A stretch of DNA of 64,000 nt from Hallella seregens ATCC 51272. GTDB taxonomy: Bacteria; Bacteroidota; Bacteroidia; Bacteroidales; Bacteroidaceae. Under the pieces are notes generated by a model. The model saw only the letters and a list, made by a program, of their open reading frames with translations. It did not search any database and was not told the DNA's origin. The position numbers and the translations under genes were made by a program. The stretch's first letter is position 1; each line of letters starts with the position of its first letter. Of the stretch, positions 31,309 to 54,419 are shown in pieces. The stretch lies in the NCBI RefSeq assembly GCF_000518545.1, contig NZ_JADU01000019.1:1-64000 (forward strand). The letters are read 5' to 3'.

Positions 31309-31326
31309 AGTTGTTTTTATTTTTAG

Positions 31327-32826: not shown

Positions 32827-32862
32827 GGTTGTGGTTTTTAAATGGAGATTGGTTTCTGGGGG

Positions 32863-32870
32863 CAAAGATA
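32863..32870 (-). promoter_or_regulatory. -7 element for xylBA
   Basis: Leftward TATCTTTG lies 36 nt upstream of the xylB ATG. It is 150 nt from the divergent element at 33021, so a regulator bound between them could act on both. Confidence 0.55.
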
Positions 32871-33020
32871 AGCAAAATATCCTAATAGTATTGTTTTGTA
32901 GCTTTTCTTTTTGTGGCTGTCTTTTTTCCAAATGTCTCAAAAGACTACTGATGTTCAATGGCGGTTGCGTATCTATAACATAAGGAGACGTTAAGGAAAA
33001 AGGCTCTGTGAGGAATCGGC

Positions 33021-33028
33021 TACCTTTG
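33021..33028 (+). promoter_or_regulatory. -7 element for the GH43 gene
   Basis: TACCTTTG ends 54 nt before the ATG at 33083. Confidence 0.55.
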
Positions 33029-33082
33029 TTGTCGCTAAAACCAAGGCAGTACAACCAAGGCTGCTCATACGAATATACCGAC

Positions 33083-34820: not shown

Positions 34821-37349
34821 ATGACAACTAAACAATCTTTGAAGCGGAAGCTGAGGAGAGTCTTGGCCAGGGTCTCTAGAATGAGTCTGCTACTGGCAAC
34901 ATGTAGCCTGGGCGGGGTGTCGTGTTCGCAGTACGACCTTGACACAAGGATGCCCTCCTGGCTGGGGCAGTCTATCTATGATTATCTGAAGGATGCCGGC
35001 AATTATACCTATACGGTACGGATGATCGACGATTTGGGCTATGCCGAGGTTTTGGCCCGCACGGGGTCGAAAACTCTCTTTGTGGCCGACGATGCCGCCT
35101 TCGATCGCTTTTTTCAGAACAACAGTTTTGGAGTGAAGAGTTATGACGCACTCACTGTCTCGCAGAAGAAGATGTTACTCTACGGTGCGATGATTAACAA
35201 CAGCTTCCAGATCAATAACCTCTCCAGTACCGAGGGGCCTGTAGAGGGCGACTGCATGCGGCGGCTGTCATCAGGGACGGTGTACGACAGCGTCCCCGTG
35301 CTAAAGACAGCTGACATGCCCAACAATCCTTATTGGTCTCGTTATCGTGAATTGGGGCAGGTGGTGTGTCTGGAAGACATGTCGGCAGTGCCAATGATTC
35401 ACTTCATTGAGCGGCATTTGGTGAACAACAATATTACCAACGAAGACTATAATTTCATCTACAACAACACGACCCGTCGGCAAAGTGGCGATGCGAGTGT
35501 GAACGGTGTACAGATCGCAGAGCAGAACATCAAGTGCTCCAACGGATTCGTTCACAAGGTGCAGGATGTGATGACACCATTGAAGAATATGGCCGAACTT
35601 ATTCGAAGCAAGAGCCAAGTGTCGGAATTCAATGCGTTGCTGGAGCGGTTTTGTGCACCTTATTATAGTCAGGCGGCCACGGAAAACTACAATCGCCTCT
35701 ATAATCAGAGTGTGGATTCCGTATTCCAAAAGCGCTTCTTCTCGGTGAAGAGCCAGCAGGGGCAGCCCGTCAATGTCTCGCCCGACAATGGTCCGGTGGA
35801 GCAGTTGAAGTTCGACCCCGAGTGGAATACCTACTATTCCGGTGAAGCCACCAGCTCGTCGCAGAGCGTGGCTCTGGAGCAGGACATGGGGCTGATGATG
35901 GTGCCCAGCAATGCGGCCATGACCGACTACTGGAACCATGGAGCCGGCCGTGTGCTGAAAGACTACTATGGATCGTGGGAACGCGTGCCCGATTATGTGG
36001 TGGCCGAACTCATCAACAACAATATGATTTCATCATTCGTGTCGAGCGTGCCGAGCAAGTTTGGTAGCATTATGAACGATGCCAACGACCCTATGGGCGT
36101 GAAACGGAGTGATGTGGACAGCGTGTGGCTGGGCTGCAATGGTGCCGTTTATCTTACTAATAAGGTGTTTTCGCCGACCACCTACGTAAGCGTACTGTTC
36201 CCGGCTTTCATCAATCAGACCATGAACATCATGCGTTGGGGTGTGTACAAGTGCCAGTACAATGTCTATCTGAACTCGCTGAACTCCACCTATAGCTTCT
36301 TCATCCCCAACAACAAGTCACTGTTGGAGTATGTAGACCCTTGTTCCTATGGCAAGAGTTCGACGCAACTCTTCAGATTCCACTACGACGGGTCGAAGCC
36401 GGACGACAACGACCGCGTGTGGGCCAGCATCTGGAACTATGACACACTGACCGGCGAGGTGGGCGACTCCATCGGGCGCGCTTCCTACGAGCAGGTGGTG
36501 GATCGGTTGCAGGATATTCTTGAAAACCACATTGTGGTGGGCGACGTGACCGACGGCCACACTTACTACCGCACGATGGGAGGCTCTGAAATCAGGGTGG
36601 ACCATGTTGCGGCCGGAAAAAACGGTATGACCGTATCGGGCAGCTGGCAAGTGAATGAAGGCGAGGGTACGGCCGTGAACGACATCTATGACCAACAAAA
36701 CGGCCGTAGTTATGTGCTCAACAATCAGCCCATCATGTGTACCCGCATGACGGTGCGCGACATTCTGTCCCAGCATGACGAGTACAGCAAGTTTCTGGAG
36801 CTGATGGATGGCAGCGGACTTTTCGAGACTATTCACAATGGGCGCAATGCCTGCGGAGGCACGAACATCAGTGTGTTCAACACCTATCACTATACGGTGT
36901 ATGTGCCAACCAACAAATCCCTCGAGGAGCTCATCGCCAGTGGCAAGCTGCCCACATGGCAGGACGTGGAAGCCGATGAGGCTGCGGGCAACATGGGCAA
37001 GAAGACTGCCGACTCGACAGCTATCGTAAACTTCCTGCGCTATCATATTCAGGACAATGCCATCTTTATCGGAGCACAGGCCATGAGTGGCGATTACGAA
37101 ACGGCCTCTTTCGACCCCACAAACGACAGTTTCTACAAGCTGCACGTCAATTCCGATGCCAACGGCATCACGGTGACCGATGCCCGGGGCAACAAGCGCC
37201 ACGTGCTCACCTCCAACGGCAAGCTCTACAACCGTATGGCCAAGGAGTATCAGTATAACAGCAGCGATGCCGCACGTGCCACACAGATAGAGACCAGCTC
37301 TTCGGCCGTGGTGCATCTCATCGACGGCCCGCTATTCTATGCAAAATAA
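34821..37349 (+). CDS. Large fasciclin (FAS1)-repeat lipoprotein
   Basis: The 842-residue protein has a lipoprotein signal ending in GGVSC (cysteine near residue 35). It shows four FAS1-like core motifs: KTLFVADDAAFDRFF (about 85), GLMMVPSNAAMTDYW (about 360), YSFFIPNNKSLLEYV (about 495) and YTVYVPTNKSLEELI (about 695). FAS1 domains are adhesive beta-rich modules of about 140 residues; their use in glycan uptake is not well defined. The protein is likely anchored at the outer membrane, facing out, in the position where PULs usually encode surface glycan-binding proteins. It opens the block, 13 nt before the first SusC gene. Confidence 0.82.
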   Translation: MTTKQSLKRKLRRVLARVSRMSLLLATCSLGGVSCSQYDLDTRMPSWLGQSIYDYLKDAGNYTYTVRMIDDLGYAEVLARTGSKTLFVADDAAFDRFFQNNSFGVKSYDALTVSQKKMLLYGAMINNSFQINNLSSTEGPVEGDCMRRLSSGTVYDSVPVLKTADMPNNPYWSRYRELGQVVCLEDMSAVPMIHFIERHLVNNNITNEDYNFIYNNTTRRQSGDASVNGVQIAEQNIKCSNGFVHKVQDVMTPLKNMAELIRSKSQVSEFNALLERFCAPYYSQAATENYNRLYNQSVDSVFQKRFFSVKSQQGQPVNVSPDNGPVEQLKFDPEWNTYYSGEATSSSQSVALEQDMGLMMVPSNAAMTDYWNHGAGRVLKDYYGSWERVPDYVVAELINNNMISSFVSSVPSKFGSIMNDANDPMGVKRSDVDSVWLGCNGAVYLTNKVFSPTTYVSVLFPAFINQTMNIMRWGVYKCQYNVYLNSLNSTYSFFIPNNKSLLEYVDPCSYGKSSTQLFRFHYDGSKPDDNDRVWASIWNYDTLTGEVGDSIGRASYEQVVDRLQDILENHIVVGDVTDGHTYYRTMGGSEIRVDHVAAGKNGMTVSGSWQVNEGEGTAVNDIYDQQNGRSYVLNNQPIMCTRMTVRDILSQHDEYSKFLELMDGSGLFETIHNGRNACGGTNISVFNTYHYTVYVPTNKSLEELIASGKLPTWQDVEADEAAGNMGKKTADSTAIVNFLRYHIQDNAIFIGAQAMSGDYETASFDPTNDSFYKLHVNSDANGITVTDARGNKRHVLTSNGKLYNRMAKEYQYNSSDAARATQIETSSSAVVHLIDGPLFYAK

Positions 37350-37362
37350 ATATAATCGAGAT

Positions 37363-40300
37363 ATGAAAAGGACAAGCATTCAACGAATATCCGCACTTGC
37401 CATGGCAGGCCTGCTGTCATTGGGACAAATGAATGCTCAGGAGGCGGGCCAGATTGTCACCGGTACAGTGAATGACAGTTTCGGCCCGGTGATGCTGGCC
37501 AATGTGGTAGAGATAGATGCTTCGAAGCGTATCGTATCGTCTACGCAAACCGACATCAACGGTAACTTCTCGCTGAAAATTCAGAATCCCAAAAACAGGC
37601 TGCGCATCTCTTTTGTCGGAACCAAGACACAGACGCTGGAACTGAACAAGACCGAATACATTGTGGTGCTGGAAGACGAGAAGACCATTCCCGAGGTGGT
37701 GGTGAGTGCCCGTCGGCGTTCCGGCGGCTCTGGGTTGAACATCCCTGTGGACGAAATTTCTACAGCCCAGCAGTCTATTAGTGCCAAGGAATTTGAGGGA
37801 CTGGGCGTGAGCACCATCGACGAGGCTCTGCAAGGACGTATTGCCGGCCTTGACATTGTGGCCAATTCGGGCAATTTGGGAGCGGGCACGTCCATGCGTC
37901 TGCGTGGTGTGAGTTCGGTCAACATGAGCGGCGAACCCCTGATAGTGGTCGACGGCAACGTGTGGGAGACCGACAGCAAGTTTGATGTGAACGGAGCCAA
38001 TGATGAGAAATTTGCCGAGCTGCTCAACGTGAATCCCGAGGACATCGAGAACATCTCTGTGCTCAAGGATGCCGCAGCTACGGCCATCTGGGGCTCGCAG
38101 GGGGCCAATGGTGTGATTGAAATCAAGACCAAACGGGGTGCACGTGGCCGTACCCAAGTGACCTATAGCTATCGGCTGACAGGAACCTACCAGCCCGAAG
38201 GCTATAAAATGCTTACCGGCGACCAGTACACCATGCTGATGAAAGAGGCCTACTTCAATCCCAAACTGAGCGATGCTGCCAGCAATATCGTGGAGTTCAA
38301 CTATGATCCCAGCTATTCGGAGTACGAGATGTATAACAACAATACCGACTGGGTGAAAGCCGTGAAGCAGACAGGCTGGCAACAGCAACACTATGTGTCG
38401 CTGGCCGGTGGCGGCGAGAAGGCCAACTTCCGCGTGACGGCCGGTTACGATCACCAGTCGGGCAGTATCATCAAGCAGTTGCTCAATCGTTTCACGTCGC
38501 GTGTGGCACTGGACTATTTTGTGAGCGACCGCATCAAAATTCAGACCAACATCGCCTTTACCTATACGAGCAATGACCGTAATTATACCGACCTGCTGGC
38601 CATTTCGTACAAGCGCATGCCCAATCTTTCCATCTTCGAGCAAGACAGACAGGGCCGCAACCTCGACACCTATTATCATATATTGCCGACGGTGAGCTCA
38701 GAACTGAACAATCTGGTGGGCCAGTTCAATCCGGTAGCCATTGCCAATCTGGCCACCAACCGCGAATCAAGCTACAACATCGAGCCGGAGTTCAAGATCA
38801 ACTATGAGTTGCTCGGCACCAATGAGAACAAGAGCCGGCTCACCTACGAGGGCAAAGTCGTTTTCAATATCTTCAACAAATACAACGATACTTTCCTGCC
38901 GGCAGCCATGAATACGCGTGGATGGAGCAACAAAAACCAGAATCTCTCGACTGCCGTTTCCAATAAGAGTCTGGGTATTACCACGACGCACACAATGACC
39001 TACACGCCGCATTTCAGCAATCGGGACCACTCGCTGATGGTGATGCTTCGCGGTCAGATGACCGACGGCAACAGCAATGCCCAGACTACAGGCGAGTATG
39101 GACTGCCCACAGGAACCATCACCGACACCGGGGCGGCCGGCATCATCAGTCAGTTCAACACCTCGGCCGGTCGTTGGCGCAGTGTCTACTTCACGTTCTC
39201 GGCCCACTATGCTTACAAGGGCCGCTACATGGCCGATCTCTCCGTGCGTCGTGACGGTTCCACGAAATTTGGCCCGTCGCAGCGATGGGGCAACTTTCCG
39301 GCACTGTCCATCAGATGGAACATCAGCAAGGAGCCATGGTTCAAGAAGTCGATGCCTTGGTTCAGCATGCTGTCGCTTCGTCCTGGATGGGGCATTGTGG
39401 GCAACCAGCCCAATGGCGAATACCTTTATCTAAGCAAGTACACCAACGGCCAAGGCTATCTAGGCGAAGGCTCCGTCTACCCCAGCAATATTCAGCTGAA
39501 GAACTTGAAGTGGGAGCAGAAGGAGACCTACAACCTCGGTCTGGACTTCGGTTTCTTCAACGACAAGATTAGTGGCAACGTGGAGTTCTATGTACAGAAC
39601 ACCAGTGATCTACTGATGGTCAACCGCGGCATTCCGCACTCTTCGGGTTTCACGGCCCTGTCTTATCAGAATGTGGGCAACATGAAGAATGTGGGTTGGG
39701 AGTTCAATGTCAATGGCAACAAGATTGTAAAAGCCGGTCCTTTCTCTCTGGACTTCAACATTACGTTTGCCAACAACAGGAACAAGATTACGAAGATGGA
39801 CGAGACGGTGCTCAACAATATGAACAAGGAGTTCAACTATCGCAACGGTTCTTATCTCACACACGTGGAGTTGAACCGGGCCTTCGGCTCCATCTACGGA
39901 TTCCGTTACAAAGGTGTTTACCAGTACACCGACTATACTCGGGACGAAGTGAGTGGCGTAAGTGGCCCCAATGCACCTGTGGTACGCGATGTCTACGGCA
40001 ATGTGGTGCTCGACGAGAAAGGACAGACCAAGCCCATGACTTTCGGCTACGGCACCAACTCGCAGTATGAGTTCAGGGGTGGTGACGCTATGTATGAAGA
40101 CATCAACCACGACGGTACCATCAATGAACTGGACATTATCTACTTGGGTTCGTCGCTGCCGAAGATTACAGGTGGCTTTGGATTTAAGATCAATGTCGGC
40201 CGTTTCACTTGGAACAACCAATTCAATTTCCGTTGGGGCAACAAGATCATCAACATGGCCCGCATGAATGCCGAGAACATGTACAGCAACGACAACCAGA

Positions 40301-40647
40301 GCCGGGCCGTGGACTGGCGTTGGCGTGTGGAGGGCGACATGACCGATGTACCGCGTGCCCTGTATCAGAGCGGTTACAACTGGCTGGGCAGCGACAGGTT
40401 CGTCGAGGATGGATCGTTTCTCCGACTGAACTACAGCCAAGTGTCCTACAGTTTCTCGTCCAAGACCTTGAGACGTATCGGACTCTCCCGTCTGAGTTTC
40501 TATGTCTCGGCCAACAACCTGTTTTGCCTGACCAGGTACAGCGGTGCCGACCCAGAAGTGAACTATGGCAGCTACGGCATCGTCTACGACAATGCGCAGA
40601 CCCCCCGGGCACGTTCGTTCACCGGTGGCATCACCATTGGACTCTAA
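37363..40647 (+). CDS. SusC/RagA-family TonB-dependent outer-membrane transporter (first)
   Basis: The 1094-residue protein has a signal peptide (ending near QMNAQ), an N-terminal carboxypeptidase-regulatory-like domain (VTGTVNDSFGPVMLANVVE, about residues 33-110), a plug domain (STIDEALQGRIAGLDIVANSG, then SVLKDAAATAIWGSQGANGVIEIKTK) and a 22-strand barrel. It imports oligosaccharides using TonB energy together with its SusD lid. The ATG at 37363 gives the signal peptide directly, although the frame opens upstream. The SusD gene follows after 33 nt. The cargo is inferred to be a xylan oligomer from the surrounding enzymes. Confidence 0.93.
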   Translation: MKRTSIQRISALAMAGLLSLGQMNAQEAGQIVTGTVNDSFGPVMLANVVEIDASKRIVSSTQTDINGNFSLKIQNPKNRLRISFVGTKTQTLELNKTEYIVVLEDEKTIPEVVVSARRRSGGSGLNIPVDEISTAQQSISAKEFEGLGVSTIDEALQGRIAGLDIVANSGNLGAGTSMRLRGVSSVNMSGEPLIVVDGNVWETDSKFDVNGANDEKFAELLNVNPEDIENISVLKDAAATAIWGSQGANGVIEIKTKRGARGRTQVTYSYRLTGTYQPEGYKMLTGDQYTMLMKEAYFNPKLSDAASNIVEFNYDPSYSEYEMYNNNTDWVKAVKQTGWQQQHYVSLAGGGEKANFRVTAGYDHQSGSIIKQLLNRFTSRVALDYFVSDRIKIQTNIAFTYTSNDRNYTDLLAISYKRMPNLSIFEQDRQGRNLDTYYHILPTVSSELNNLVGQFNPVAIANLATNRESSYNIEPEFKINYELLGTNENKSRLTYEGKVVFNIFNKYNDTFLPAAMNTRGWSNKNQNLSTAVSNKSLGITTTHTMTYTPHFSNRDHSLMVMLRGQMTDGNSNAQTTGEYGLPTGTITDTGAAGIISQFNTSAGRWRSVYFTFSAHYAYKGRYMADLSVRRDGSTKFGPSQRWGNFPALSIRWNISKEPWFKKSMPWFSMLSLRPGWGIVGNQPNGEYLYLSKYTNGQGYLGEGSVYPSNIQLKNLKWEQKETYNLGLDFGFFNDKISGNVEFYVQNTSDLLMVNRGIPHSSGFTALSYQNVGNMKNVGWEFNVNGNKIVKAGPFSLDFNITFANNRNKITKMDETVLNNMNKEFNYRNGSYLTHVELNRAFGSIYGFRYKGVYQYTDYTRDEVSGVSGPNAPVVRDVYGNVVLDEKGQTKPMTFGYGTNSQYEFRGGDAMYEDINHDGTINELDIIYLGSSLPKITGGFGFKINVGRFTWNNQFNFRWGNKIINMARMNAENMYSNDNQSRAVDWRWRVEGDMTDVPRALYQSGYNWLGSDRFVEDGSFLRLNYSQVSYSFSSKTLRRIGLSRLSFYVSANNLFCLTRYSGADPEVNYGSYGIVYDNAQTPRARSFTGGITIGL

Positions 40648-40680
40648 ACCTTACAAATGCAATAAGACAATCTATAAGAT

Positions 40681-42411
40681 ATGAAAGCATTATCGATAGT
40701 TCAATCCATCAACAAGCGTCTTGGCGGCCTGCGGACCATGCCGGCAAGGGTGCTGGTGGCTGGCTTGTCGGCACTGGGGCTGACCTCGTGCAACTCTTTC
40801 CTCGACACATTGCCGCTCAATGATGTTGTGCTGGAAAACTTCTGGACGCAGAAGTCAGACGTGACCAGTGTGCTCAACAGTTGCTATGAGTCGTTGGAGA
40901 GCAACGACTGCTTGACGCGCATGGGCTTATGGGGCGAGGTGCGTTCCGATAACATGACGGCCGGCTCGGCGCCGAACGCCCAACTGACCGACCTGCTGAA
41001 GGAGAATCTTCTGCCTACCAACAGCTACACCGACTGGCTCTCTTTCTATCAGACCATCAACCGCTGCAACACCGTGTGCTACTATGCCCCCTTGGTACAG
41101 GCCAAGGACCCCAACTATACGCTGGCCGAGATGCGTGCCAACATTGCCGAGGCAAGTGCCATCCGCGCCTTGTGCTATTTCTATCTCATCCGTACTTTCC
41201 GCGATGTGCCCTATAGCACACGGCCGAGCATTGACGACACGGGCGTGTATCAGCTTCCTGCATCCAAGTTCGGTGTGGTGCTCGACTCCCTGATAGCCGA
41301 TCTGGAGAGTGTCAAGGACTACGCCGTGCGCCGGTACTACACCGACGACAATGTCAAGGCCTACTACAACTCGTCCAGGATTACGCGCTGGGCCGTCTAT
41401 GCGCTGCTCGCCGACATGTATCTGTGGAGGGGCGATTGGGACAAGTGCATAGACTGTTGCGACCAGATACTGGCCTACAAGCGCCGGCAGTATGACGACA
41501 TGCGCAGTGAGGATGCCGGCAAGGTGTCTGACCTTTATCTCTTCAACGGCTATCCTTTACTAATGGAAAGGCCTACGGGAAGCGTGCTTTCGGGCAGCGC
41601 TTACGGTGCAATCTTCGGGCGAGGAAGCTGTTTTGAGAGCGTGTTTGAGCTGTATTTCAACGAGAATCAGGCCGTAAACAACAACTGGATACGGAACTTT
41701 TATGGCAGCAGCTCCACGATGATCGGCCAGCTGAGTGCCCCCGACTTCCTCTATAAGGATGCGGCCATCGGCAACAACAAGCTCTTCACCCACAACGATT
41801 GCCGGGTGTATGAGAACATGCAGCATGTGTCGTCGCGCTATGCCATTACCAAATACGTGCGTCAGTCAGTGTCGATGAATACCAATAATGTCACCGGCGA
41901 GGCCGACCTGCGCCTGAGTTTCTCGCGCCGCAGCAACGCTTACAGCAACTGGATCGTTTATCGCATGACCGACATCATGCTGATGAAAGCCGAGGCTGAG
42001 GTACAGAAAGGCGAGGCCCATTTTGCCAAGGCCTTCTCGTTGGTCAATGCCGTGAACAAGCGTGCCAAGAATGCTTATACCTCCAGTGTGACGGATACGC
42101 TTGTGGCCGGCAACTACCAGAGTCGGCAGCAGATGGAAGAACTGGTGCTCGACGAGCGTCAGCGCGAACTGATGTTCGAGGGCAAGCGCTGGTTCGACTT
42201 GGTGCGCATGGCACGTCGCGACGGCGACACGCGTCGGCTGGTGAGCTATGTTGTCAATAAGTATGTGGACAACGTGAATGCCATCCGCATCAAGCTCGCC
42301 GACCCGAACATTATTTATTGGCCTTACTATGAGGATGAAATCAAGATGAATCCGCGCCTCGTCCAGAATTCGGCCTACAATACGGGCGACAATTCCCAGT
42401 TGTCTCACTAA
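40681..42411 (+). CDS. SusD/RagB-family nutrient-binding lipoprotein (first)
   Basis: The 576-residue protein has a lipobox (LTSC, about residue 37, then NSFLDTLPLNDV) and the SusD pattern: FWTQKSDVTSVLNSCYESLE, the TPR-like AEASAIRALCYFYLIRTF and the C-terminal LVLDERQRELMFEGKRWFDLVRM. It forms a hinged lid over the preceding SusC and binds the oligosaccharide at the cell surface. Its C-terminus (FARRSN-type ends) is of normal length. It belongs to the first SusCD pair in the operon. Confidence 0.93.
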   Translation: MKALSIVQSINKRLGGLRTMPARVLVAGLSALGLTSCNSFLDTLPLNDVVLENFWTQKSDVTSVLNSCYESLESNDCLTRMGLWGEVRSDNMTAGSAPNAQLTDLLKENLLPTNSYTDWLSFYQTINRCNTVCYYAPLVQAKDPNYTLAEMRANIAEASAIRALCYFYLIRTFRDVPYSTRPSIDDTGVYQLPASKFGVVLDSLIADLESVKDYAVRRYYTDDNVKAYYNSSRITRWAVYALLADMYLWRGDWDKCIDCCDQILAYKRRQYDDMRSEDAGKVSDLYLFNGYPLLMERPTGSVLSGSAYGAIFGRGSCFESVFELYFNENQAVNNNWIRNFYGSSSTMIGQLSAPDFLYKDAAIGNNKLFTHNDCRVYENMQHVSSRYAITKYVRQSVSMNTNNVTGEADLRLSFSRRSNAYSNWIVYRMTDIMLMKAEAEVQKGEAHFAKAFSLVNAVNKRAKNAYTSSVTDTLVAGNYQSRQQMEELVLDERQRELMFEGKRWFDLVRMARRDGDTRRLVSYVVNKYVDNVNAIRIKLADPNIIYWPYYEDEIKMNPRLVQNSAYNTGDNSQLSH

Positions 42412-42428
42412 TAGAAGTTTTGTGTGAT

Positions 42429-44357
42429 ATGAAAACGACCAAGCAAATCGCATTCTCCCTGTTGGCCGTCGTCCTGACGCTGACGCCGGGCTTCCTTTTC
42501 CAGAGCTGCTCTGATGAGGAGATGCCTACCACTTATTATACATCGGTGAAACTGACGGCTGCGGGATTTATCTCCTCGCGCCAGGACACCTACAGCCAGT
42601 TTGAGGCCATCCTCAACCGTGCCAACTACTATACGTTGCTCTCCACCTATGGCAAGTTCACGCTCTTTGCACCTACCAATGCAGCCGTGGACCAGTTTCT
42701 GAAACAGAACGGATGGACCAGTGTGGACCAGATTCCCCAAGCCCAGTGCGATACCATTGCCCGCACGCACATCGTGAAGCGGGGAGCCTATTTCACGACC
42801 GACGTGAGCGATGCAGCCCTGCCAGAGATGAACATGAACGACCGTTACATCACCATTTCTTCAGACTCCGATGTCGCGCATGGCAATGCTTTGGTATTCT
42901 TCGTTAACAAGACGGCCAAGATAACCGAGCGTGACGACTCTGTGACCAACGGCGTGGTGCACACCATCGACCATGTGCTGGGTGCCAGCAACCTGTTTCT
43001 GCCCGACCTCATCGACGAGAACCCGGAACTTCGCCTCTTCAGCGAGGCTCTGCATCTCACGGGCATGAAAGACTCCATCTCCAAGTATCTTGACGAGAGT
43101 TATACGATCAGTCTCGACTCGGTAGTCGATGGTGTGCCCACCATGTACGGTGGCCGCCCCACCCAGGCCTACTGGCCCGAGAAGCGTTATTTCAAGTTCT
43201 CGGCCTTTGTCGAGACCGACTCCATCTTTGCCCTGCACAACATCCACAGTCTGGACGACCTCAAGGCTTATGCCAAGAGGGTGTACGACCAGACCTATCC
43301 TGCGGATGCCGGCCGGTACGATGATGACTGGACCAACCGTCGGAATCCGCTCAACCGATTCATTTCCTACCATCTGATCAATCGCCTGGGCAACTATAGC
43401 GACTGGGTGAGCTCCGGCGAGATTCGTGAGCAGTGCTGTGTCACTTCAGTGCTCGACCCTGAAGATTATTATGAGACCATGTGTCCCGGCACCATCATGC
43501 GCTTTAGCGGTCCGTCGGCTGGATTGTTCATCAATCGCAAAGGGCTGCAAAACAATTTCTCCATCCGTGGTGTCAAGGTGCTGTCTCCGTCAGAGTCGGG
43601 CCATGCCGACCAGAACGCCCTGAATGGCATTTACCATTTCATCGATGACATTTTAGTCTATTCTCCCGACGTTCGCGACAAAGTGCTCAACACACGCATC
43701 CGTGTGGACGGCACCACCATGAGCCCCGACTTTATGAATGCCGGTGCCCGCGGCCACTTTGGCGAGAACTATCTCACGGCCTTCAAGCATGCCTACATTC
43801 AAGACTGGAAGGTGAGCGACGAGACTTTTATCGGCGTACACAGCAATGAATTGGGCTGGCACTCCTACGAGGGCAATGCCATTTGCCTCATGGGCATCTA
43901 TGACGTGACGATGAAGCTGCCGCCCGTGCCGAGCGGCACCTATGAAATCCGCATGGGCTATACCGTGGGCACGGAGCGCGGTGTGGTGCAGGTCTATCTG
44001 AACAATGAGCCTTGCGGCATTCCCATCGACCTGCGTATCTACGGTGTGGCTCCCAACATTGGTTGGGTGTCGGATGGCGAGGACAACGACGAGAACACCG
44101 CCAACGACAAAGCCATGCACAACCGTGGCTATATGAAGGGCATGGACAGCTATCGCTCCAGTGGTGGCAATGTGTTCCGTGAGAATGTGGAGAACCTGCG
44201 CCGCGTCCTGACAACCACCTATCTGGATTCGGAGAAGACCTACTGGCTGCGCTTCCGCCAAGTGCTCGACGACCCGAAGTGCTACCTCTCTTTCGACTAT
44301 ATCGAGCTTTGTCCGTCCAGCATCTACAACAGTCCCAGGGGCGAAGACCGGCATTAG
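42429..44357 (+). CDS. Fasciclin-domain lipoprotein (second)
   Basis: The 642-residue protein has a lipoprotein signal (FLFQSC, about residue 27) and a first FAS1 domain with the family motif GKFTLFAPTNAAVDQFL (about 70-86) ending in NGVVHTIDHVLG. A second FAS1-like domain ends in GIYHFIDDILVYS (about 405). The C-terminal 200 residues form a beta-sandwich-like region (YDVTMKLPPVPSGTYEIRMG, then KTYWLRFRQVLDDPKCYLSFD) that could be the binding part. It starts 17 nt after the SusD gene and is followed by another FAS1 gene, so three FAS1 lipoproteins belong to the same operon. Ligand unknown. Confidence 0.82.
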   Translation: MKTTKQIAFSLLAVVLTLTPGFLFQSCSDEEMPTTYYTSVKLTAAGFISSRQDTYSQFEAILNRANYYTLLSTYGKFTLFAPTNAAVDQFLKQNGWTSVDQIPQAQCDTIARTHIVKRGAYFTTDVSDAALPEMNMNDRYITISSDSDVAHGNALVFFVNKTAKITERDDSVTNGVVHTIDHVLGASNLFLPDLIDENPELRLFSEALHLTGMKDSISKYLDESYTISLDSVVDGVPTMYGGRPTQAYWPEKRYFKFSAFVETDSIFALHNIHSLDDLKAYAKRVYDQTYPADAGRYDDDWTNRRNPLNRFISYHLINRLGNYSDWVSSGEIREQCCVTSVLDPEDYYETMCPGTIMRFSGPSAGLFINRKGLQNNFSIRGVKVLSPSESGHADQNALNGIYHFIDDILVYSPDVRDKVLNTRIRVDGTTMSPDFMNAGARGHFGENYLTAFKHAYIQDWKVSDETFIGVHSNELGWHSYEGNAICLMGIYDVTMKLPPVPSGTYEIRMGYTVGTERGVVQVYLNNEPCGIPIDLRIYGVAPNIGWVSDGEDNDENTANDKAMHNRGYMKGMDSYRSSGGNVFRENVENLRRVLTTTYLDSEKTYWLRFRQVLDDPKCYLSFDYIELCPSSIYNSPRGEDRH

Positions 44358-44405
44358 TCAAGGTTGATTGGTATTTTGAATTGAAATAATGAATTATGAA
44401 TTGTG

Positions 44406-46007
44406 ATGATGACATTCTCATTTAGACATATAGCCCTCATGGCTGCAGCCGGCGCCCTGCTGACGGCGTGCAGCGACTGGGCCGACCATTACGACGGCAA
44501 GGCAGACACCACCAGCAGCGAGTCGCTGTGGGCCAGCCTGCAGGCCAACCCCCAGCTCAGCGATTTCTGCGAAGTGCTGCAGCAGTCCCGCATCTTCCGT
44601 CACCATCGCCGCACGTCGGTGAGCTATGCCCAGTTGCTCGATGGCGGACAGTCGTTCACGGTTTTTGCGCCGGTCAACGGCACGTTCAACAAGGATTCGC
44701 TGCTCAGCCTTGTGCAGACCGATCGTGGTGACTCCACGGTAGAGAAGTTCTTCATCCGCAACCACATCGCCGCTTCTCCCAATTCGGCCGTTGGTACCGG
44801 CAGTGAGGTGCGGCTGCTCAATGGCAAGCACGTCAGTCTGTCGGCCGGCGACGTAGAGGGCACCCCCATCGCTACGGGCAACGTCCATGCCAAAAACGGC
44901 ACGCTGCATGTGCTCGGAGCCCGGATGCCTTACCAGTACAACCTCTATGAGGCTATGACTGATCGGCCTGACTATCAGCCAGTAGGCGATTTCCTGCGCG
45001 TCTACAACGAAGACTATTTCGACGAGGATGCCTCTATCTCAAGCGGTCTTGTCGATGGGGTGCCCGTTTATGTGGATTCCGTTATCCATGAGCGCAATAC
45101 CATGCTGCAGCAGATAGGGCTCCTTGCTGCCGAAGACTCCAGTTATTGGATGGTTGCTCCCGCACAGACAGGTTGGAACAAGGCCTATGCCATGGCCCGC
45201 CAGTACTTTGTATACGACAAGACAGTGGACAAGCGCGATTCCGTGCAGCATTATTGGACCAATCGTTCATTGCTCGAAGACGCCATCTTCAACATGAACA
45301 TCCAGCCCTCTTGGCGCGACTCGTTGAAGTCGGTGCAGTACAATGCGCTCACCCCGGAGTACCATGTCTTCTACAGGCCGATGGACGGCGGCATCCTGTC
45401 AGGGGCCACGCCGGTAGCCTGCAGCAACGGTACGTTGTATCAGACCTCCGACTGGCCTTTTACACCCGAGCAGACTTTCTTCAAGGTGCTACGCACAGAG
45501 GGTGAGCGCACAGGCTACATCACGTCTTATACCAGTTGCACCTACAACACCCGTTCCGTGTCGGCCGACTCCGTGTCGAAGAATGCCTATCTCGACATTC
45601 TGCCCCAGACGGCCACTTCCAACTGGACGGTTACTTTCCGTGTCGACAACACGCTGTCGGGGACTTATGACATCTGCGCCATCATCCTGCCGCAGACAGT
45701 CTACAACCCCAACCAGACCAATCTGCGTCCCTGCAAGTTCCGGGCCAACATCAACTATGTCGACACGGCTGGTGTGTCCCAAACCTATAATTGCGGCAAC
45801 GTGCAGTTCACCACCGACCCGGCGCGGGTCGACACCGTGGTTCTGACCAAGGGTTTCACGTTCCCCGCCTGCAACTTCGACCAGGACAACCTCAAGGTAA
45901 GCGTACAGCTCCGCTGTTCCATCCTGGCCCGTGAGACCTCCAGATACTCTCGCGAGATGTATCTGGACTGCATCTACTTATGTCCTTCAACCTCAAAAGA
46001 AGATTAA
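44406..46007 (+). CDS. Fasciclin-domain lipoprotein (third)
   Basis: The 533-residue protein has a lipobox (LLTAC, about residue 20) and one clear FAS1 domain with GQSFTVFAPVNGTFN (about 80-95) closing at NGTLHVLGARMPYQYN. A second, weaker FAS1-like stretch contains SSYWMVAPAQTGWN (about 240). The C-terminal 170 residues look like a beta-sandwich (NWTVTFRVDNTLSGTYDICAI). It ends 3 nt before the second SusC gene, an arrangement that strongly suggests joint use with that transporter. GTG at 44403 and ATG at 44409 are alternative starts. Confidence 0.8.
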   Translation: MMTFSFRHIALMAAAGALLTACSDWADHYDGKADTTSSESLWASLQANPQLSDFCEVLQQSRIFRHHRRTSVSYAQLLDGGQSFTVFAPVNGTFNKDSLLSLVQTDRGDSTVEKFFIRNHIAASPNSAVGTGSEVRLLNGKHVSLSAGDVEGTPIATGNVHAKNGTLHVLGARMPYQYNLYEAMTDRPDYQPVGDFLRVYNEDYFDEDASISSGLVDGVPVYVDSVIHERNTMLQQIGLLAAEDSSYWMVAPAQTGWNKAYAMARQYFVYDKTVDKRDSVQHYWTNRSLLEDAIFNMNIQPSWRDSLKSVQYNALTPEYHVFYRPMDGGILSGATPVACSNGTLYQTSDWPFTPEQTFFKVLRTEGERTGYITSYTSCTYNTRSVSADSVSKNAYLDILPQTATSNWTVTFRVDNTLSGTYDICAIILPQTVYNPNQTNLRPCKFRANINYVDTAGVSQTYNCGNVQFTTDPARVDTVVLTKGFTFPACNFDQDNLKVSVQLRCSILARETSRYSREMYLDCIYLCPSTSKED

Positions 46008-46010
46008 ACG

Positions 46011-49000
46011 ATGAAAAAACAAATACTGACAGGAGCCCTGCTGTTTGCAGTTGCGTCTGCAATGGCCCAGAGAGACAGCATCACCATCAGCGGCGTTGTG
46101 ACCGATGCCGCCAGCGGTACGCCCGTCCCCGGTGTGCGCATAGAGGCTTATGGCAACAACCGGCTCACGGCCATGACCAACGGAAAGGGTGAGTACAGCT
46201 TGCAGCTCCCGACTTATGTCTCCTCGGTAACGATGATGGGTGTGGGCTATCAGGTGCAGCAGGTGCCCATTGGCCGCCATTTCAATCAAGTGAACGGGCT
46301 TCTTTATAGCGACAGCTTCAGCGGCAACTACAGTCGTCGCACCGTGGCCACCGTTGATAAGACAGTGACAGGATTTGAAAACAATGCCGAAGAGAGCATC
46401 GATCCACTCATTCATCAGCGGCTGGGTGCCGACGTGCGAACCATGTCGCGGGGCGGCAACGAGGGCGTGGGCTATGTGATGTTTATCGGAGGTCTCAATT
46501 CTTTCCAGAGCAACGCCCAGCCGCTGGTTGTGGTCGACGGCGTCATCACTGACCTGCAATACGGCAGCGGCATGCTTCACGACGGCTATTTCAACAATAT
46601 CCTCTCCAATTTCAATGTGAACGATATTGAGAAAGTGACGGTACTGAAGAATGGAACAGCCATCTATGGAGCCAAAGGAGCCAATGGTGTTATCCTCATC
46701 AATACCAAGCGCAACAATAGTATGGCTACCAAGATAGACGTAATCGTCAACGGACGTTACGAGCTCACGCCACGCCTTCCCGAGATGCTGGGAGCTGAGG
46801 ACTACCGCATTTACGCCACTGAATTGCTGGGCAACCAGACCGATGACGTGTCGGCGTTGCGTTTTGTCAATACAGATCCCACCTATTATTATTACAAGCC
46901 CTATCACAACCAGACCAACTGGAAGAACGAGGTCTATCGCAACAGCTTCTCCAGCAACTATGGCATCAATGTACAGGGCGGCGACGAGGTGGCCAGCTAT
47001 AACCTGTCCGTAGGTTATAGCATGGCCAACAGCACACTGAAAAACAACGACTTCTCGCGGTTCAACATGCGTCTCAACACCGACATCTCTGTGCTTAAGG
47101 ATCTTGACCTCAAGTTCGATGCCAGCTACAGTGACGTCAACCGCAACCTGCGCGACGACGGCATCCCCAGCGATGTCACGGGTTCCACCATCACTTCGCC
47201 GGGTTTCCTGGGGCTCATCAAGGCTCCGTTCCTCTCGCCCTACGCCTATGATGTCAGTGGTCACCGGAGCAATTATCTCTCCGCTGCCGACGACTATCTC
47301 TCCGAAGTGTACGGTTCAGATGTTTCTCTGGCCAATCCCAACAGCATTTTGGAATTTGGCGAGGGCAAGAACCGCAATACTTTCGGCAATCGTCTCATCA
47401 CCCTGAGTGCCACGCCGCGCTATCAGTTCAATCGCCATCTCTCCCTGAGCGAGCACTTTTGCTTCACCTTGCTCAATACCAACGAGAACTATTACCTGCC
47501 GCTCACCGGCGTTCCGGCGTTCAGAGTGAAGAACATGTCCAACAGCTATGTCAACAACATGGCAGAGAGTCTGGCTGGTCGCCAGAACAGTATTCAGAGC
47601 GACACGCGCCTGGCGTGGGACAATCGCTTCGGGGCCCACAGTCTGAACGTCTTCGGTGGTGTGCGCTATCTCTCCAGCAACTACAAGCTCAATGTACAAC
47701 GTGGCTATAATACAGGCAACGACAAAACACCCAACATGAGTACTTCCCTGCAGTACAAGTCGACCGAAGGGGCCGACAACAAGATTCGTGATATCACTTG
47801 GTATGCCAATGCCGACTACAACTTTGCTGAGCGCTACTATCTCGCGGCCACGCTGTCGGCCGAGGCTTCCAGCCGTTTTGGCAGTGCAGCAGCAGGGCTG
47901 AATCTTTTTGGCACCGTGTGGGGCCTCTTTCCCAGTGTCGAGGTAGCCTGGGTGCTTAGCAATGAAAGGTGGTTTGACGCCCGTGGTGCTGTCAATTACC
48001 TGAAACTCAATGTGGGCTTCGATGTGACAGGAAACGACGACATCGACTACACGGCTTCTCGTACTTACTTCGTGGCCAACAACATGTTGGGCAGAAGTGT
48101 CGATGGCAAGTCCATTGGCAACATCGGCAACGATGAGCTGAAGTGGGAGACTACCCGTCGGTTTACCGCCGGTCTCACGGGCAACTTCTTCAACAATCGT
48201 CTCTCTCTGGGCATCCATGCCTACAAGAGCTGGACAAGTGACCTGCTCACGCTGGGCCGTCTGGCTTGGACCAGTGGTATCAAGCAGAACTGGACCAACG
48301 GTGGCAAGCTCGAAAATGTGGGCTTCGATGTCAGTGCCTCCTGGCGTGTGCTCAACGAGAAAAACGTGAAGTGGGAACTGTCTGCCAGTGTGGGCCATTA
48401 CAAGAACAAGCTCACCGCCCTCTCCAATGACAATGTCCCCGTGGAGACTTCACTCTATGGAGCCACGGTGCTGTCGCAGGTAGGGATGCCCGTGGGTGTG
48501 TTCTACGGTTACAAGACAGCCGGTGTCTTCTCTACCCAGGCCGAAGCCGATGCAGCCGGTCTCTATCTCCTTGACGAGAGTGGCAACAGGCAGGCTTTTC
48601 GGGCGGGCGACATGCACTTTGTCGATGTAGACGGCAATCATGAAATCAATGCCAAGGATCGGCAAGTCATTGGCGACCCCAACCCCGACTTCTATGGCAA
48701 TCTCACCACATCAATTAGCTGGAAGCATTGGAATCTTACAGCCATAGCCAACTATTCTTTGGGAAACGACATCTACAACTATCAGCGTTCCGTCATCGAG
48801 GGAGGCAGCTATTTCTACAATCAGACCACGGCCATGAACCAACGTTGGACCACCGAAGGGCAGCACACGTCCATTCCTCGTGTGAACTATTCTGACCCGA
48901 TGGGCAACAGTCGCTTCAGCGATCGCTGGATCGAGGATGGTTCCTACCTGCGTCTGCGCACCGTGACGCTCAGCTACACATGGCCCATGGACTACCAGTA

Positions 49001-49172
49001 TCTCAAGGGACTCACGCTCTGGGCCAGTGTTGGCAACCTCTTCACGCTGACCCATTATCTGGGTTCAGACTCCGACAACATTCTCTCGGGTAGCGTGCTC
49101 AGTCAGGGCATCGACCGTGGGCTCTTAGGTCATGGGCGTAGTTTCTCGATGGGTGTCAAGATCAATTTGTAA
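46011..49172 (+). CDS. SusC/RagA-family TonB-dependent outer-membrane transporter (second)
   Basis: The 1053-residue protein has a signal peptide (MKKQILTGALLFAVASAMAQ), a short N-terminal regulatory-like domain (ITISGVVTDAASGTPVPGVRIEA), a plug (PLVVVDGVITDLQYGSG, KVTVLKNGTAIYGAKGANGV) and a barrel ending GRSFSMGVKINL. It differs clearly from the first SusC, so it is not a simple recent duplication, and may take different oligomers from the same glycan. A stretch of about 60 residues between the regulatory domain and the plug (FNQVNGLLYSDSFSG...) is unusual compared with classic SusC. The SusD partner follows after 34 nt. Confidence 0.92.
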   Translation: MKKQILTGALLFAVASAMAQRDSITISGVVTDAASGTPVPGVRIEAYGNNRLTAMTNGKGEYSLQLPTYVSSVTMMGVGYQVQQVPIGRHFNQVNGLLYSDSFSGNYSRRTVATVDKTVTGFENNAEESIDPLIHQRLGADVRTMSRGGNEGVGYVMFIGGLNSFQSNAQPLVVVDGVITDLQYGSGMLHDGYFNNILSNFNVNDIEKVTVLKNGTAIYGAKGANGVILINTKRNNSMATKIDVIVNGRYELTPRLPEMLGAEDYRIYATELLGNQTDDVSALRFVNTDPTYYYYKPYHNQTNWKNEVYRNSFSSNYGINVQGGDEVASYNLSVGYSMANSTLKNNDFSRFNMRLNTDISVLKDLDLKFDASYSDVNRNLRDDGIPSDVTGSTITSPGFLGLIKAPFLSPYAYDVSGHRSNYLSAADDYLSEVYGSDVSLANPNSILEFGEGKNRNTFGNRLITLSATPRYQFNRHLSLSEHFCFTLLNTNENYYLPLTGVPAFRVKNMSNSYVNNMAESLAGRQNSIQSDTRLAWDNRFGAHSLNVFGGVRYLSSNYKLNVQRGYNTGNDKTPNMSTSLQYKSTEGADNKIRDITWYANADYNFAERYYLAATLSAEASSRFGSAAAGLNLFGTVWGLFPSVEVAWVLSNERWFDARGAVNYLKLNVGFDVTGNDDIDYTASRTYFVANNMLGRSVDGKSIGNIGNDELKWETTRRFTAGLTGNFFNNRLSLGIHAYKSWTSDLLTLGRLAWTSGIKQNWTNGGKLENVGFDVSASWRVLNEKNVKWELSASVGHYKNKLTALSNDNVPVETSLYGATVLSQVGMPVGVFYGYKTAGVFSTQAEADAAGLYLLDESGNRQAFRAGDMHFVDVDGNHEINAKDRQVIGDPNPDFYGNLTTSISWKHWNLTAIANYSLGNDIYNYQRSVIEGGSYFYNQTTAMNQRWTTEGQHTSIPRVNYSDPMGNSRFSDRWIEDGSYLRLRTVTLSYTWPMDYQYLKGLTLWASVGNLFTLTHYLGSDSDNILSGSVLSQGIDRGLLGHGRSFSMGVKINL

Positions 49173-49206
49173 GGCGACAGTGCCATAACTTTCAACCAAA
49201 CATATC

Positions 49207-50904
49207 ATGATGAAACGTCATATCTCTTTCCTGGCCCTCTTGCTTCTGCTGGGTTTGTCCTCGTGCTCCGACATGCTCAACATCCATTCAGACCTTGTGG
49301 AGTTTGCCGAAGACAACAAACTCGATACCCCCGAGGACTCCGTCTACAGCGTCATGGGCATCCTGCACCAGATGCAGAAGATTGCAGACCGCACTGTGTT
49401 GCTGGGCGAGCTGCGTGCCGACCTCATGGAACCCACGGCCAAGGCCTCTGCCGATCTCAAGGCCATTGCTTCCTGCATCGTTCCGGCCACCAATCCCTAC
49501 AACAGTATCAGCGATTACTATGCAGTCATCAACAACTGCAACTATTTCCTGCACCATGTCGATACCACGCTGCGCAAGCGCAATCGCAGTGTCTTTGCCC
49601 GTGAGTATGCCGCAGTAAAGGCTTTCCGTGCTTGGACTTATCTGCAGGCGGCCCAGGTCTATGGTGCCATTCCTTTGCTCACCGACCCCGTCCTTACGGA
49701 GTCTGAGGCCCGTGAGGCCATGGCCAAGTCACCGTCCGACATCCCGGCTATTTGCAACTACTTCATCTCCGACCTTGCGCCAGAAGTCGATACTGAGCTG
49801 CCGGCCTATGGCAGTATCTCTGCGCAGGAGTCGTCCAGGTTCTTCATTCCTGTGCGTGCTTTGCTCGGCGACCTCTGTCTTTGGGTCGGTCGCTATCAGG
49901 AGGCAGCACAGTATTACCACGACTATCTTACCAGACAGGGTCAAGAGATTGTCACCGGAACCAGTGGGGCAAGATGGGGAGATACATCGTACAAGGGTGT
50001 TGTAAATGGCTATACCACAGACATACAGTCTTCAAGCGGCGGCGAGGTGCTGTCGTATATCCCCATGGAGTCTTCGGTCTTCAATGGGGTCAAGAGCGGG
50101 CTGGCCACTATCTACAACTCCATTTCGGAAAACTATTCCTACTTCCAGGCCAGGCCATCTGCCCGTCTGCGCGAGCTGAGTGCTGCCGAAGACTATTGCA
50201 TGGTGTATGAGGGTATGGACTCCCACCGTGACACCATTTATGTACCCAAGGTCAATCTGCTTAGTTCCGATGCTGTCGGCGACCTCCGTTTCTTTGCAAG
50301 CTATATCCATCGGGTTGAGCTTCAGGGAGCCCATTCACGTTACTCCTCCGACATTCAGATACTGCGCAAGCTCAACAACAATGGTATTACCACCTATCGT
50401 CGCACGGTAGTTTACCTTCATTTTGCCGAGGCACTCAACCGTGCGGGCTATCCGCAGTCGGCCATGGCCGTACTGAAGTATGGGCTGTACCCCGAGGCCA
50501 TCGACAATTATGTAGACTCTGTGGAGCGTAAGGCTGCCGGTACGTTGCTTAGCTTTTCCCAGACCGTGTTCACTCGGAACAACACCCAAGGCATTCACAG
50601 TCGTGGTTGTGGTGACAGCGACGCCAATGCCCACTATGTGTTGCCTCAGCCCGAGACTACGCTGGCCAGCCGGGCCGACACAGTAAACTGGCAGGTTCCT
50701 CTTGTCGAGGATATGATTATGCGTGAGCTGGCCCTTGAAACAGCTTTCGAGGGCTGCCGCTTCTACGACCTCATGCGGGTGGCCCTGCGCCGTGGTGAAC
50801 CGGCCTATCTGGCCACACCCGTGAGTCTGCGTGCCGGACAACGCGACGAGTCGCTCTTTCAACTGCTCATGACCCCTTCCAACTGGTATCTGCCCAAGAA
50901 CTAA
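49207..50904 (+). CDS. SusD/RagB-family nutrient-binding lipoprotein (second)
   Basis: The 565-residue protein has a short lipoprotein signal (FLALLLLLGLSSC) and SusD features: SDYYAVINNCNYFLHHVDTTL, the helix AAVKAFRAWTYLQAAQVYGAIPL and the C-terminal MIMRELALETAFEGCRFYDLMR. It pairs with the second SusC. The end (NWYLPKN) is typical for the family. A second ATG one codon later (49210) is equally possible. GH30 follows after 33 nt. Confidence 0.92.
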   Translation: MMKRHISFLALLLLLGLSSCSDMLNIHSDLVEFAEDNKLDTPEDSVYSVMGILHQMQKIADRTVLLGELRADLMEPTAKASADLKAIASCIVPATNPYNSISDYYAVINNCNYFLHHVDTTLRKRNRSVFAREYAAVKAFRAWTYLQAAQVYGAIPLLTDPVLTESEAREAMAKSPSDIPAICNYFISDLAPEVDTELPAYGSISAQESSRFFIPVRALLGDLCLWVGRYQEAAQYYHDYLTRQGQEIVTGTSGARWGDTSYKGVVNGYTTDIQSSSGGEVLSYIPMESSVFNGVKSGLATIYNSISENYSYFQARPSARLRELSAAEDYCMVYEGMDSHRDTIYVPKVNLLSSDAVGDLRFFASYIHRVELQGAHSRYSSDIQILRKLNNNGITTYRRTVVYLHFAEALNRAGYPQSAMAVLKYGLYPEAIDNYVDSVERKAAGTLLSFSQTVFTRNNTQGIHSRGCGDSDANAHYVLPQPETTLASRADTVNWQVPLVEDMIMRELALETAFEGCRFYDLMRVALRRGEPAYLATPVSLRAGQRDESLFQLLMTPSNWYLPKN

Positions 50905-54371: not shown

Positions 54372-54419
54372 GTATTTCTCCCGAACTCCACTGTTTCGTT
54401 TTTGCTTCAATCTCTGCTT

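Follow-up and report, generated by a model that had tools for sequence, protein, structure and literature searches.

The window analysed here is the 64,000-nucleotide stretch at positions 1 to 64,000 of contig NZ_JADU01000019.1 of Hallella seregens ATCC 51272, and our subject is a cassette of seven genes within it, all on the + strand at 34821-50904, in which two SusC-SusD pairs are interleaved with three genes for fasciclin-domain (FAS1) proteins, here termed FASa, FASb and FASc. SusCD systems are main glycan importers of the Bacteroidota, and the order FASa-SusC1-SusD1-FASb-FASc-SusC2-SusD2 places two such pairs in a single polysaccharide utilization locus (PUL), as follows:

34821..37349, + strand: FASa, 842 aa, Pfam Fasciclin match at residues 654-802
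37339..40647, + strand: SusC1, TIGR04056 match of 683 bits, the Met at 37363 probably being the true start
40681..42411, + strand: SusD1, SusD_RagB 90.7 bits and SusD-like_3 51.5 bits
42429..44357, + strand: FASb, 642 aa, AlphaFold2 model with pLDDT 90.0 and pTM 0.86
44403..46007, + strand: FASc, 534 aa, AlphaFold2 model with pLDDT 87.8 and pTM 0.79
46011..49172, + strand: SusC2, TIGR04056 match of 537 bits, a separate SusC lineage by tree
49207..50904, + strand: SusD2, a divergent SusD just under the Pfam cut-offs, with positional counterparts in relatives

Family profiles confirmed this order, which a first-pass annotation of the same DNA had described, together with the intergenic gaps of 3 to 48 nt that it had given and that hold with the likeliest start codons (the first listed ATG of SusC1 gives an 11-nt overlap with FASa). 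All three FAS proteins lie above the Pfam Fasciclin (PF02469) cut-off of 22 bits, at 64.7, 70.1 and 28.8 bits over one stretch each, and the FAS1 fold is seen in the models of FASb and FASc. Both SusC proteins exceed the TIGR04056 cut-off of 368 bits, SusD1 lies above its Pfam cut-offs, and SusD2 scores just below two Pfam SusD cut-offs (25.8 versus 27 and 21.9 versus 23.1 bits) and is therefore a divergent SusD. The window holds the adjacent SusC-SusD pair by which a PUL is recognized, as well as the lipoprotein gene beside SusD by which a surface glycan-binding protein (SGBP) is recognized, with FASb directly after SusD1 and FASc next.

Evaluating the rest of the genome (3.27 Mb in 58 contigs) revealed five cassettes with identical seven-gene order, the copy on contig C11 being made complete by a SusD2 recognized at 341.9 bits. 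All 16 Fasciclin matches of the genome at E≤0.001 fall inside these five cassettes, as do 10 of the 38 SusC genes that exceed the cut-off of their family. Across copies the paralogs are 30-55% identical position by position, and SusC1 and SusC2 are 24-28% identical to each other. A profile search of genome contigs with a FASb alignment returned at least 498 relatives, of which the best 80 were kept, nearly all of them titled Prevotella, Prevotellaceae or Bacteroidaceae and many ruminant-derived according to their titles. The first-pass annotation had proposed looking for the order elsewhere, and it was found in full on one strand in 74 of these 80 related loci, the other 6 being cut by contig ends. 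Because of its five occurrences in the genome and these 74 loci, the cassette order is not chance.

Sampling more broadly, we found FASb matches in 76 of 150 genus genomes and 138 of 249 family genomes, and in the order and phylum samples in 68 of 295 and 156 of 345, where most of the matches listed span the FAS1 part only. Any Fasciclin match at all was present in 33 of 148 genomes of an order-wide sample, and in 17 of these 33 the FAS genes were interleaved with SusC and SusD (partially in G502 and G419, owing to contig ends). Of the 16 others, 15 were seen only as loci of 2.0-3.4 kb without recognized SusC or SusD, and the sixteenth, G522, was left out of the locus inspection. We then picked 60 stretches from other genomes for their FASb or Fasciclin matches and applied an automatic test for the order FAS-SusC-SusD-FAS-(FAS or unassigned)-SusC-SusD on one strand, which 29 passed, representing 22 genomes of 13 families; among these, one (L178) has an unassigned gene at the FASc place and ten have a SusD2 frame of <400 aa, often at the stretch end. 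The remaining stretches were cut by stretch or contig ends, had six-gene forms (4), were rearranged, or held lone FAS1 genes. The 20 stretches of the phylum sample contained 8 complete and 2 six-gene cassettes, all from the same class and outside the order, and lone FAS1 genes in 10, from the class and the rest of the phylum, which speaks against a universal order. The cassette is, on these observations, recurrent in other Bacteroidales families and, within the class, outside the order.

Several variants accompany the seven-gene form. The six-gene form, with one FAS gene between the SusCD pairs, is represented by L122, L123, L200 and L201. A four-gene form with a single SusCD pair (FASa-SusC-SusD-FAS), guessed from pairs of matches 7 kb apart, was rejected, as the 20 stretches checked for it mostly held the seven-gene run or an end-cut part of it, and two were six-gene (L122, L123). 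In one stretch (L182, G529:C4:2000-21999) a single FAS1 gene of 200 aa stands after a SusC-SusD pair; this arrangement, which may be a minimal relative of the cassette, again speaks against a universal order. Elsewhere, a lone frame of 1224 codons at G512:C3:361176-364388 (L139, L183) is matched eight times by FAS1 at similar scores, and the 20 kb examined there contain no recognized SusC or SusD. Two adjacent FASb genes, perhaps a duplicated binding protein, occur in one locus at G224:C25:18426-22462, G235:C39:15155-19192 and G090:C19:21386-25563.

To describe how the seven genes have travelled, we compared their divergence across 32 loci, where pairwise distances of the seven proteins correlated at r 0.93-0.98 for all 21 gene pairs, against at most 0.43 in 500 label shuffles of five gene pairs. 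All seven genes diverge in step and are thus inherited together as one cassette. A tree of 87 SusC proteins, made by a quick method with midpoint root and support from the Shimodaira-Hasegawa-like approximate likelihood ratio test (SH-aLRT) only, put 38 SusC1 sequences on one side of a branch and 38 SusC2 sequences on one side (support 100 and 98). The six-gene forms contribute four sequences of each kind, which group with the matching sides; three other SusCs lie between, and the branching within the two halves is largely mirrored, with single entries such as L126 and L170 differing. Judged from this tree, SusC1 and SusC2 represent two old lineages distinct from each other, and a recent origin of the two pairs by tandem duplication was rejected on the 24-28% identity and the separate tree groups.

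The FAS proteins themselves contain more FAS1-like domains than Pfam counts, as both hhalign and fold comparison revealed. The lipoprotein-type N-termini proposed by the first-pass annotation are supported in each: FASa shows, by eye, an N-terminus of this type with GVSC-SQYD, FASb has a lipoprotein signal with an acidic tail (CSDEE) and FASc a lipoprotein signal reading CSDWADH. Quarters of FASa aligned to the FASb FAS1 profile with hhalign probabilities of 90, 76, 48 and 97%, the third match covering just 32 columns, such that FASa probably consists of four FAS1-like domains with no further domain recognized. The FASb model (642 aa, from 53 sequences) divides into a FAS1 domain at 39-188, a second FAS1-like domain at ~190-412 and a beta-sandwich of carbohydrate-binding module (CBM) type at 421-636; the FASc model (534 aa, 62 sequences) likewise has FAS1 at 37-177 (Z 17.2), a second FAS1-like domain to ~356 and a CBM-type beta-sandwich at 360-531. 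Fold searches, run with the whole models and the C-terminal domains inside them, matched FASb 39-186 to the FAS1 structure 2ltb (Z 18.7), with a periostin match spanning 41-412 (VIA-align), and FASb 421-636 to xanthan lyase 6f2p (Z 12.0), MiXBM 7ehg (Z 11.5) and the CBM35 of Xyn30D (Z 8.9). For FASc 360-531 the module of the Paenibacillus xanthan lyase 6f2p was matched at Z 15.6 (root-mean-square deviation 2.3 over 137 residues), followed by MiXBM 7ehg (Z 14.2), 4qaw (Z 12.9) and CBM4, CBM6 and CBM22 entries at Z 11-11.5. The sandwiches match CBM35, CBM4, CBM6, CBM22 and xanthan-binding modules by fold, without a Pfam sequence-family match, and those of FASb and FASc both match the same solved modules, although between the two C-termini no sequence homology was found (6.6%; weak or mixed elsewhere, best cross match 85.6%), and whole-protein hhalign profiles aligned the N-terminal FAS1 parts only.

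Comparing these proteins with four distant cassette groups revealed which parts persist. All 8 comparisons recovered the first FAS1 domain, for FASb as for FASc, with hhalign probabilities of 99.5-100%, and 4 of the 8 recovered the C-termini, namely 3 of 4 for FASb (100, 97, 93 and 15%) and 1 of 4 for FASc (99.9, 18, 1.5 and 0.2%). Taken as a qualitative contrast, this leans towards a conserved docking module joined to a faster-changing head, mainly in FASc. Among 103 sequences of each protein a lipobox-like pattern was present in 74 for FASa, 85 for FASb and 83 for FASc and in 87 for SusD1 and 85 for SusD2, compared with 20 and 8 of 103 in the SusC controls, counts obtained with a regular expression that sometimes picks the wrong cysteine, as for the FASa of the window. 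The acidic motif that follows the lipobox of FAS and SusD proteins is similar to the SDDDD-type signal for which PMC5080379 proposes a role in export in Bacteroides fragilis.

From these observations we lean slightly towards reading the seven genes as an outer-membrane cassette, inherited together, whose products capture a complex glycan and import the fragments. In the levan system described in PMC7618045 a stable complex is formed by a SusCD pair, a surface glycoside hydrolase (GH) and an SGBP whose C-terminal glycan-binding domain is mobile, and it is by analogy with this system that FASb and FASc would be surface glycan-binding lipoproteins and FASa a bridging scaffold that keeps the two SusCD pairs together. 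In FASb and FASc the pair of FAS1 domains would dock on the SusCD barrels, and the C-terminal beta-sandwich would hold the polysaccharide. The first-pass annotation had given the FAS1 proteins a glycan-binding or cell-adhesion job, perhaps on insoluble xylan fibres, a proposal not supported in that form, as fold and conservation make the C-terminal CBM-type sandwich of FASb and FASc a more likely binding part than the FAS1 domains. Enzymes beside each copy would then set the substrate.

A reading in which the FAS proteins are structural scaffold only, joining the SusCD pairs and leaving capture to SusD1, SusD2 and the enzymes, strikes us as unlikely, though it deserves weight: every distant group compared keeps the first FAS1 domains, the C-termini persist in half of the distant comparisons, and no FAS protein of the window has a Pfam CBM. 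It fits less well with the CBM-type sandwich in both C-termini, or with the 3 of 4 distant FASc and one FASb C-termini that were not recovered, as is expected of a ligand-binding part. A SusD, moreover, need not be the binder, as a non-binding SusD-like protein has reportedly been described for a xylooligosaccharide system, and we count this against the scaffold-only reading as well. More improbable still is that the FAS1 lipoproteins are adhesion factors, for plant fibre, other bacteria or host, that are merely co-transcribed with the transporters. Its appeal comes from the closest solved folds, those of TGFBIp and periostin, and from animals, in which FAS1 domains are adhesion and matrix modules according to PMC6032426, yet that same review cautions that in bacteria the name adhesion may be misleading, the FAS proteins keep fixed places around two SusCD pairs in many families, and each Fasciclin match of the genome sits in a cassette.

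The capture-and-import reading gains a probable local substrate from the genes flanking the cassette in the window:

33008..34669, + strand: GH43 with GH43_C2, Pfam GH43 159.5 bits, directly upstream of the cassette and in the same direction, probably the first enzyme of the PUL
50938..52443, + strand: GH30, XynC-like, Pfam 31.2 bits (cut-off 23), NCBIfam XynC 148.7, under the equivalog cut-off of 650
52359..54371, + strand: SASA-type carbohydrate esterase, Pfam SASA 61 bits, the listed start overlapping GH30 and the true start lying later
54402..55955, + strand: sugar symporter of the glycoside-pentoside-hexuronide (GPH) type in the major facilitator superfamily (MFS), MFS_2 303 bits, scanned from 54426
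55951..57048, + strand: GH10 xylanase, Pfam GH10 307 bits
57067..58032, + strand: GH43, Pfam 72 bits
58148..62065, + strand: hybrid two-component system (HTCS) regulator with Reg_prop, HisKA, HATPase_c, Response_reg and HTH_18
62416..64000, running on to position 65706 of contig C16, + strand: secreted protein of 1096 aa without Pfam family, after the HTCS

Pfam bore out the downstream series of GH30, esterase, GPH, GH10, GH43 and HTCS, in the same direction, that the first-pass annotation had read. The cluster holds carbohydrate-active enzymes (CAZymes) and an HTCS-type regulator, as PULs do, and counting the GH43, GH67 and GH115 genes that follow the 1096-aa protein past the window edge it has the backbone and side-chain enzymes of a xylan PUL (GH10, GH30, GH43, GH67, GH115 and SASA). 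Given the genes beyond the edge together with the downstream xylan genes, the substrate of this copy is most likely glucuronoxylan, which would be sensed by the HTCS. On the - strand at 29989-33195, divergent from the PUL, lie a gene for a xylose-isomerase-like TIM barrel and an FGGY kinase gene, by eye a xylose isomerase and a xylulokinase, which would put a pathway for released xylose next to the PUL. Relatives of the 1096-aa protein stand directly 3' of SusD2 at L028:18525-21905 (44% identity over 830 residues) and L053:18521-21965 (36% over 825), and this protein may be a further surface binding protein of these loci. With this possible further binder, the earlier suggestion that FAS1 proteins act in place of the usual SGBPs is supported at most in part. 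A promoter and terminator scan was only modestly above shuffles (17 versus 12.2 and 20 versus 13.2), and its result was not used.

Looking beyond the window copy, xylan proved to be a local association. Glycosidase genes lie at most 2 genes from SusD2 in 4 of the 5 H. seregens copies, and the neighbours differ between copies: an FG-GAP protein and GH36 beside the C15 copy, with an HTCS-like gene on the opposite side; DUF6055 and two GH127 beside the C8 copy; Glyco_hydro_cc beside the C2 copy; and beside the C11 copy (L019/L020) a large protein whose MG2 match is sub-threshold (26.7 versus 32.8 bits). Because these five copies of one genome adjoin different genes, the cassette itself is not xylan-specific, and the label of xylan-type PUL given by the first-pass annotation is right only for the local context, not for the system as such. 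In two genomes, each from another family, DUF6055 genes adjoin the cassette (L021:9771-11120 and L172:15525-17456) and encode a candidate partner. Among close relatives there were 76 proteins 3' of SusD2, of which 53 were scanned and, with the GH30 of the window, made 54; in the 25 of 27 families listed these included GH30_2 in 10, SASA in 5, Glyco_hydro_cc in 4, the HTCS domain Reg_prop in 14, and GH8, GH10, GH43 and GH98 in one each, many proteins having no match. For distant cassettes, 69 flanking proteins (of 70) showed, among the 25 of 94 families listed, BNR_3 in 4, GH95 in 3, and GH88 and GH115 in one each, with GH28 as the first member and many families unrelated to glycans; distant copies stand near GH95, GH28, GH88, GH115 or GH2 genes. 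A PorZ-type beta-propeller protein adjoins one distant cassette (L176:14528-17101). That the cassette imports something other than free polysaccharide, such as glycopeptides or lignin-carbohydrate fragments, with neighbours varying as the cassette is general, we regard as very improbable, since the glycosidase genes beside 4 of 5 own copies and the GH genes near some distant ones speak against it, despite the C11 copy without a recognized CAZyme next door, the peptidase M28 gene adjoining one distant copy (L197) and the many non-glycan families among distant neighbours.

A number of points weigh against the reading of the cassette as a glycan-capturing importer with FASb and FASc as its binders. 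The examined stretch of the C11 copy, which ends at the contig end, has no recognized CAZyme, one stretch (L132) is rearranged with FASb before FASa, and another (L127) has an 854-aa gene without Pfam match at the place expected for FASa. The contrast between FAS1 domains and C-termini is uneven, with 3 of 4 distant FASb C-termini recovered, and within the genome FASb identity along the protein (36, 31 and 32%) gives no contrast and that of FASc (33, 31 and 26%) a small one. At least two acidic residues at +2 to +6 occur in only 33 of 103 FASa, 60 FASb and 56 FASc proteins (58 SusD1 and 51 SusD2 were acid-rich, and 0 of the SusC controls). The architecture of FASa is predicted from sequence. 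The fold list of FASc also has a laminin domain (Z 11.4) and Cry-toxin sandwiches (Z 11-13), and the latter warn that part of its sandwich match is generic fold; no Pfam CBM match was found in any FAS protein of the window, including the FASb and FASc C-termini, and a shared fold of modelled sandwiches shows no function. The distance correlation would signify co-inheritance rather than contact, as plain vertical or block inheritance gives the same signal, and glycan binding, co-expression and complex formation are predictions.

Given the fixed positions of the two SusCD lineages, the boldest reading that fits is a single complex containing both pairs. In this 'double utilisome' two SusCD transporters of separate, old lineages would be clamped by three FAS1 lipoproteins into one obligate hetero-complex, with FAS1 as universal docking module and exchangeable CBM-type heads setting the glycan. 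We offer this tentatively and doubt it somewhat more than we believe it; if true, it would be a class-wide nutrient-uptake machine whose architecture is fixed and whose heads and enzymes are changed to suit xylan, pectin-type or other plant glycans. That two distinct SusCD lineages and three FAS1 lipoproteins keep their arrangement in different families, and outside the Bacteroidales as well, suggests cooperation between the pairs, and this bears on why some PULs hold two SusCD pairs. It also offers a testable function for the 'fasciclin domain' proteins of rumen and gut relatives of Prevotella.

Among known systems, the xus-type xylan loci carry tandem SusCD and resemble the cassette in having two SusC-SusD pairs in a xylan PUL. 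Their xylan-binding lipoprotein is of an unrelated kind, and they are not known to carry FAS1 genes. TGFBIp and periostin share the FAS1 fold and its tandem arrangement, but are animal matrix proteins of 14-25% identity whose structural alignments end before the C-terminal sandwich. The xanthan lyase 6f2p, MiXBM 7ehg, CBM35, CBM4, CBM6 and CBM22 share the fold of the FASb and FASc C-termini at 6-18% identity and without a sequence-family match. The arabinoxylan EGE PUL of Bacteroides intestinalis (PMC7815789) also brings together xylan enzymes, an HTCS and SusCD at a single locus; it has one SusCD pair, and neither 'fasciclin' nor 'FAS1' occurs in that paper. A FAS1/fasciclin gene is labelled in or near PULs in a figure legend for Gramella portivictoriae (PMC4891872) and mentioned in the PUL-bearing Bacteroidota genome of a mussel symbiont (PMC10199937), with no cassette described in the passages concerned. 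We found no paper analysing the seven-gene cassette, nor a description of a FAS1 pair with a CBM-type head as a surface glycan-binding layout, in the literature searched, which mostly lacked subscription papers and held no preprints. The cassette remains a PUL with SusCD pairs, and FAS1 genes in PUL-bearing Bacteroidota have already been labelled or mentioned. The levan and dextran utilisomes of B. thetaiotaomicron (PMC7618045) are also among the closest known systems, in that a SusC barrel and its SusD lid are likewise encoded next to additional surface lipoproteins, with an SGBP whose glycan-binding C-terminal domain is mobile; the word 'fasciclin' is absent from that paper, and those utilisomes have four outer-membrane components (SusC, SusD, SGBP and GH), whereas the cassette has two SusCD lineages and three FAS1 lipoproteins.

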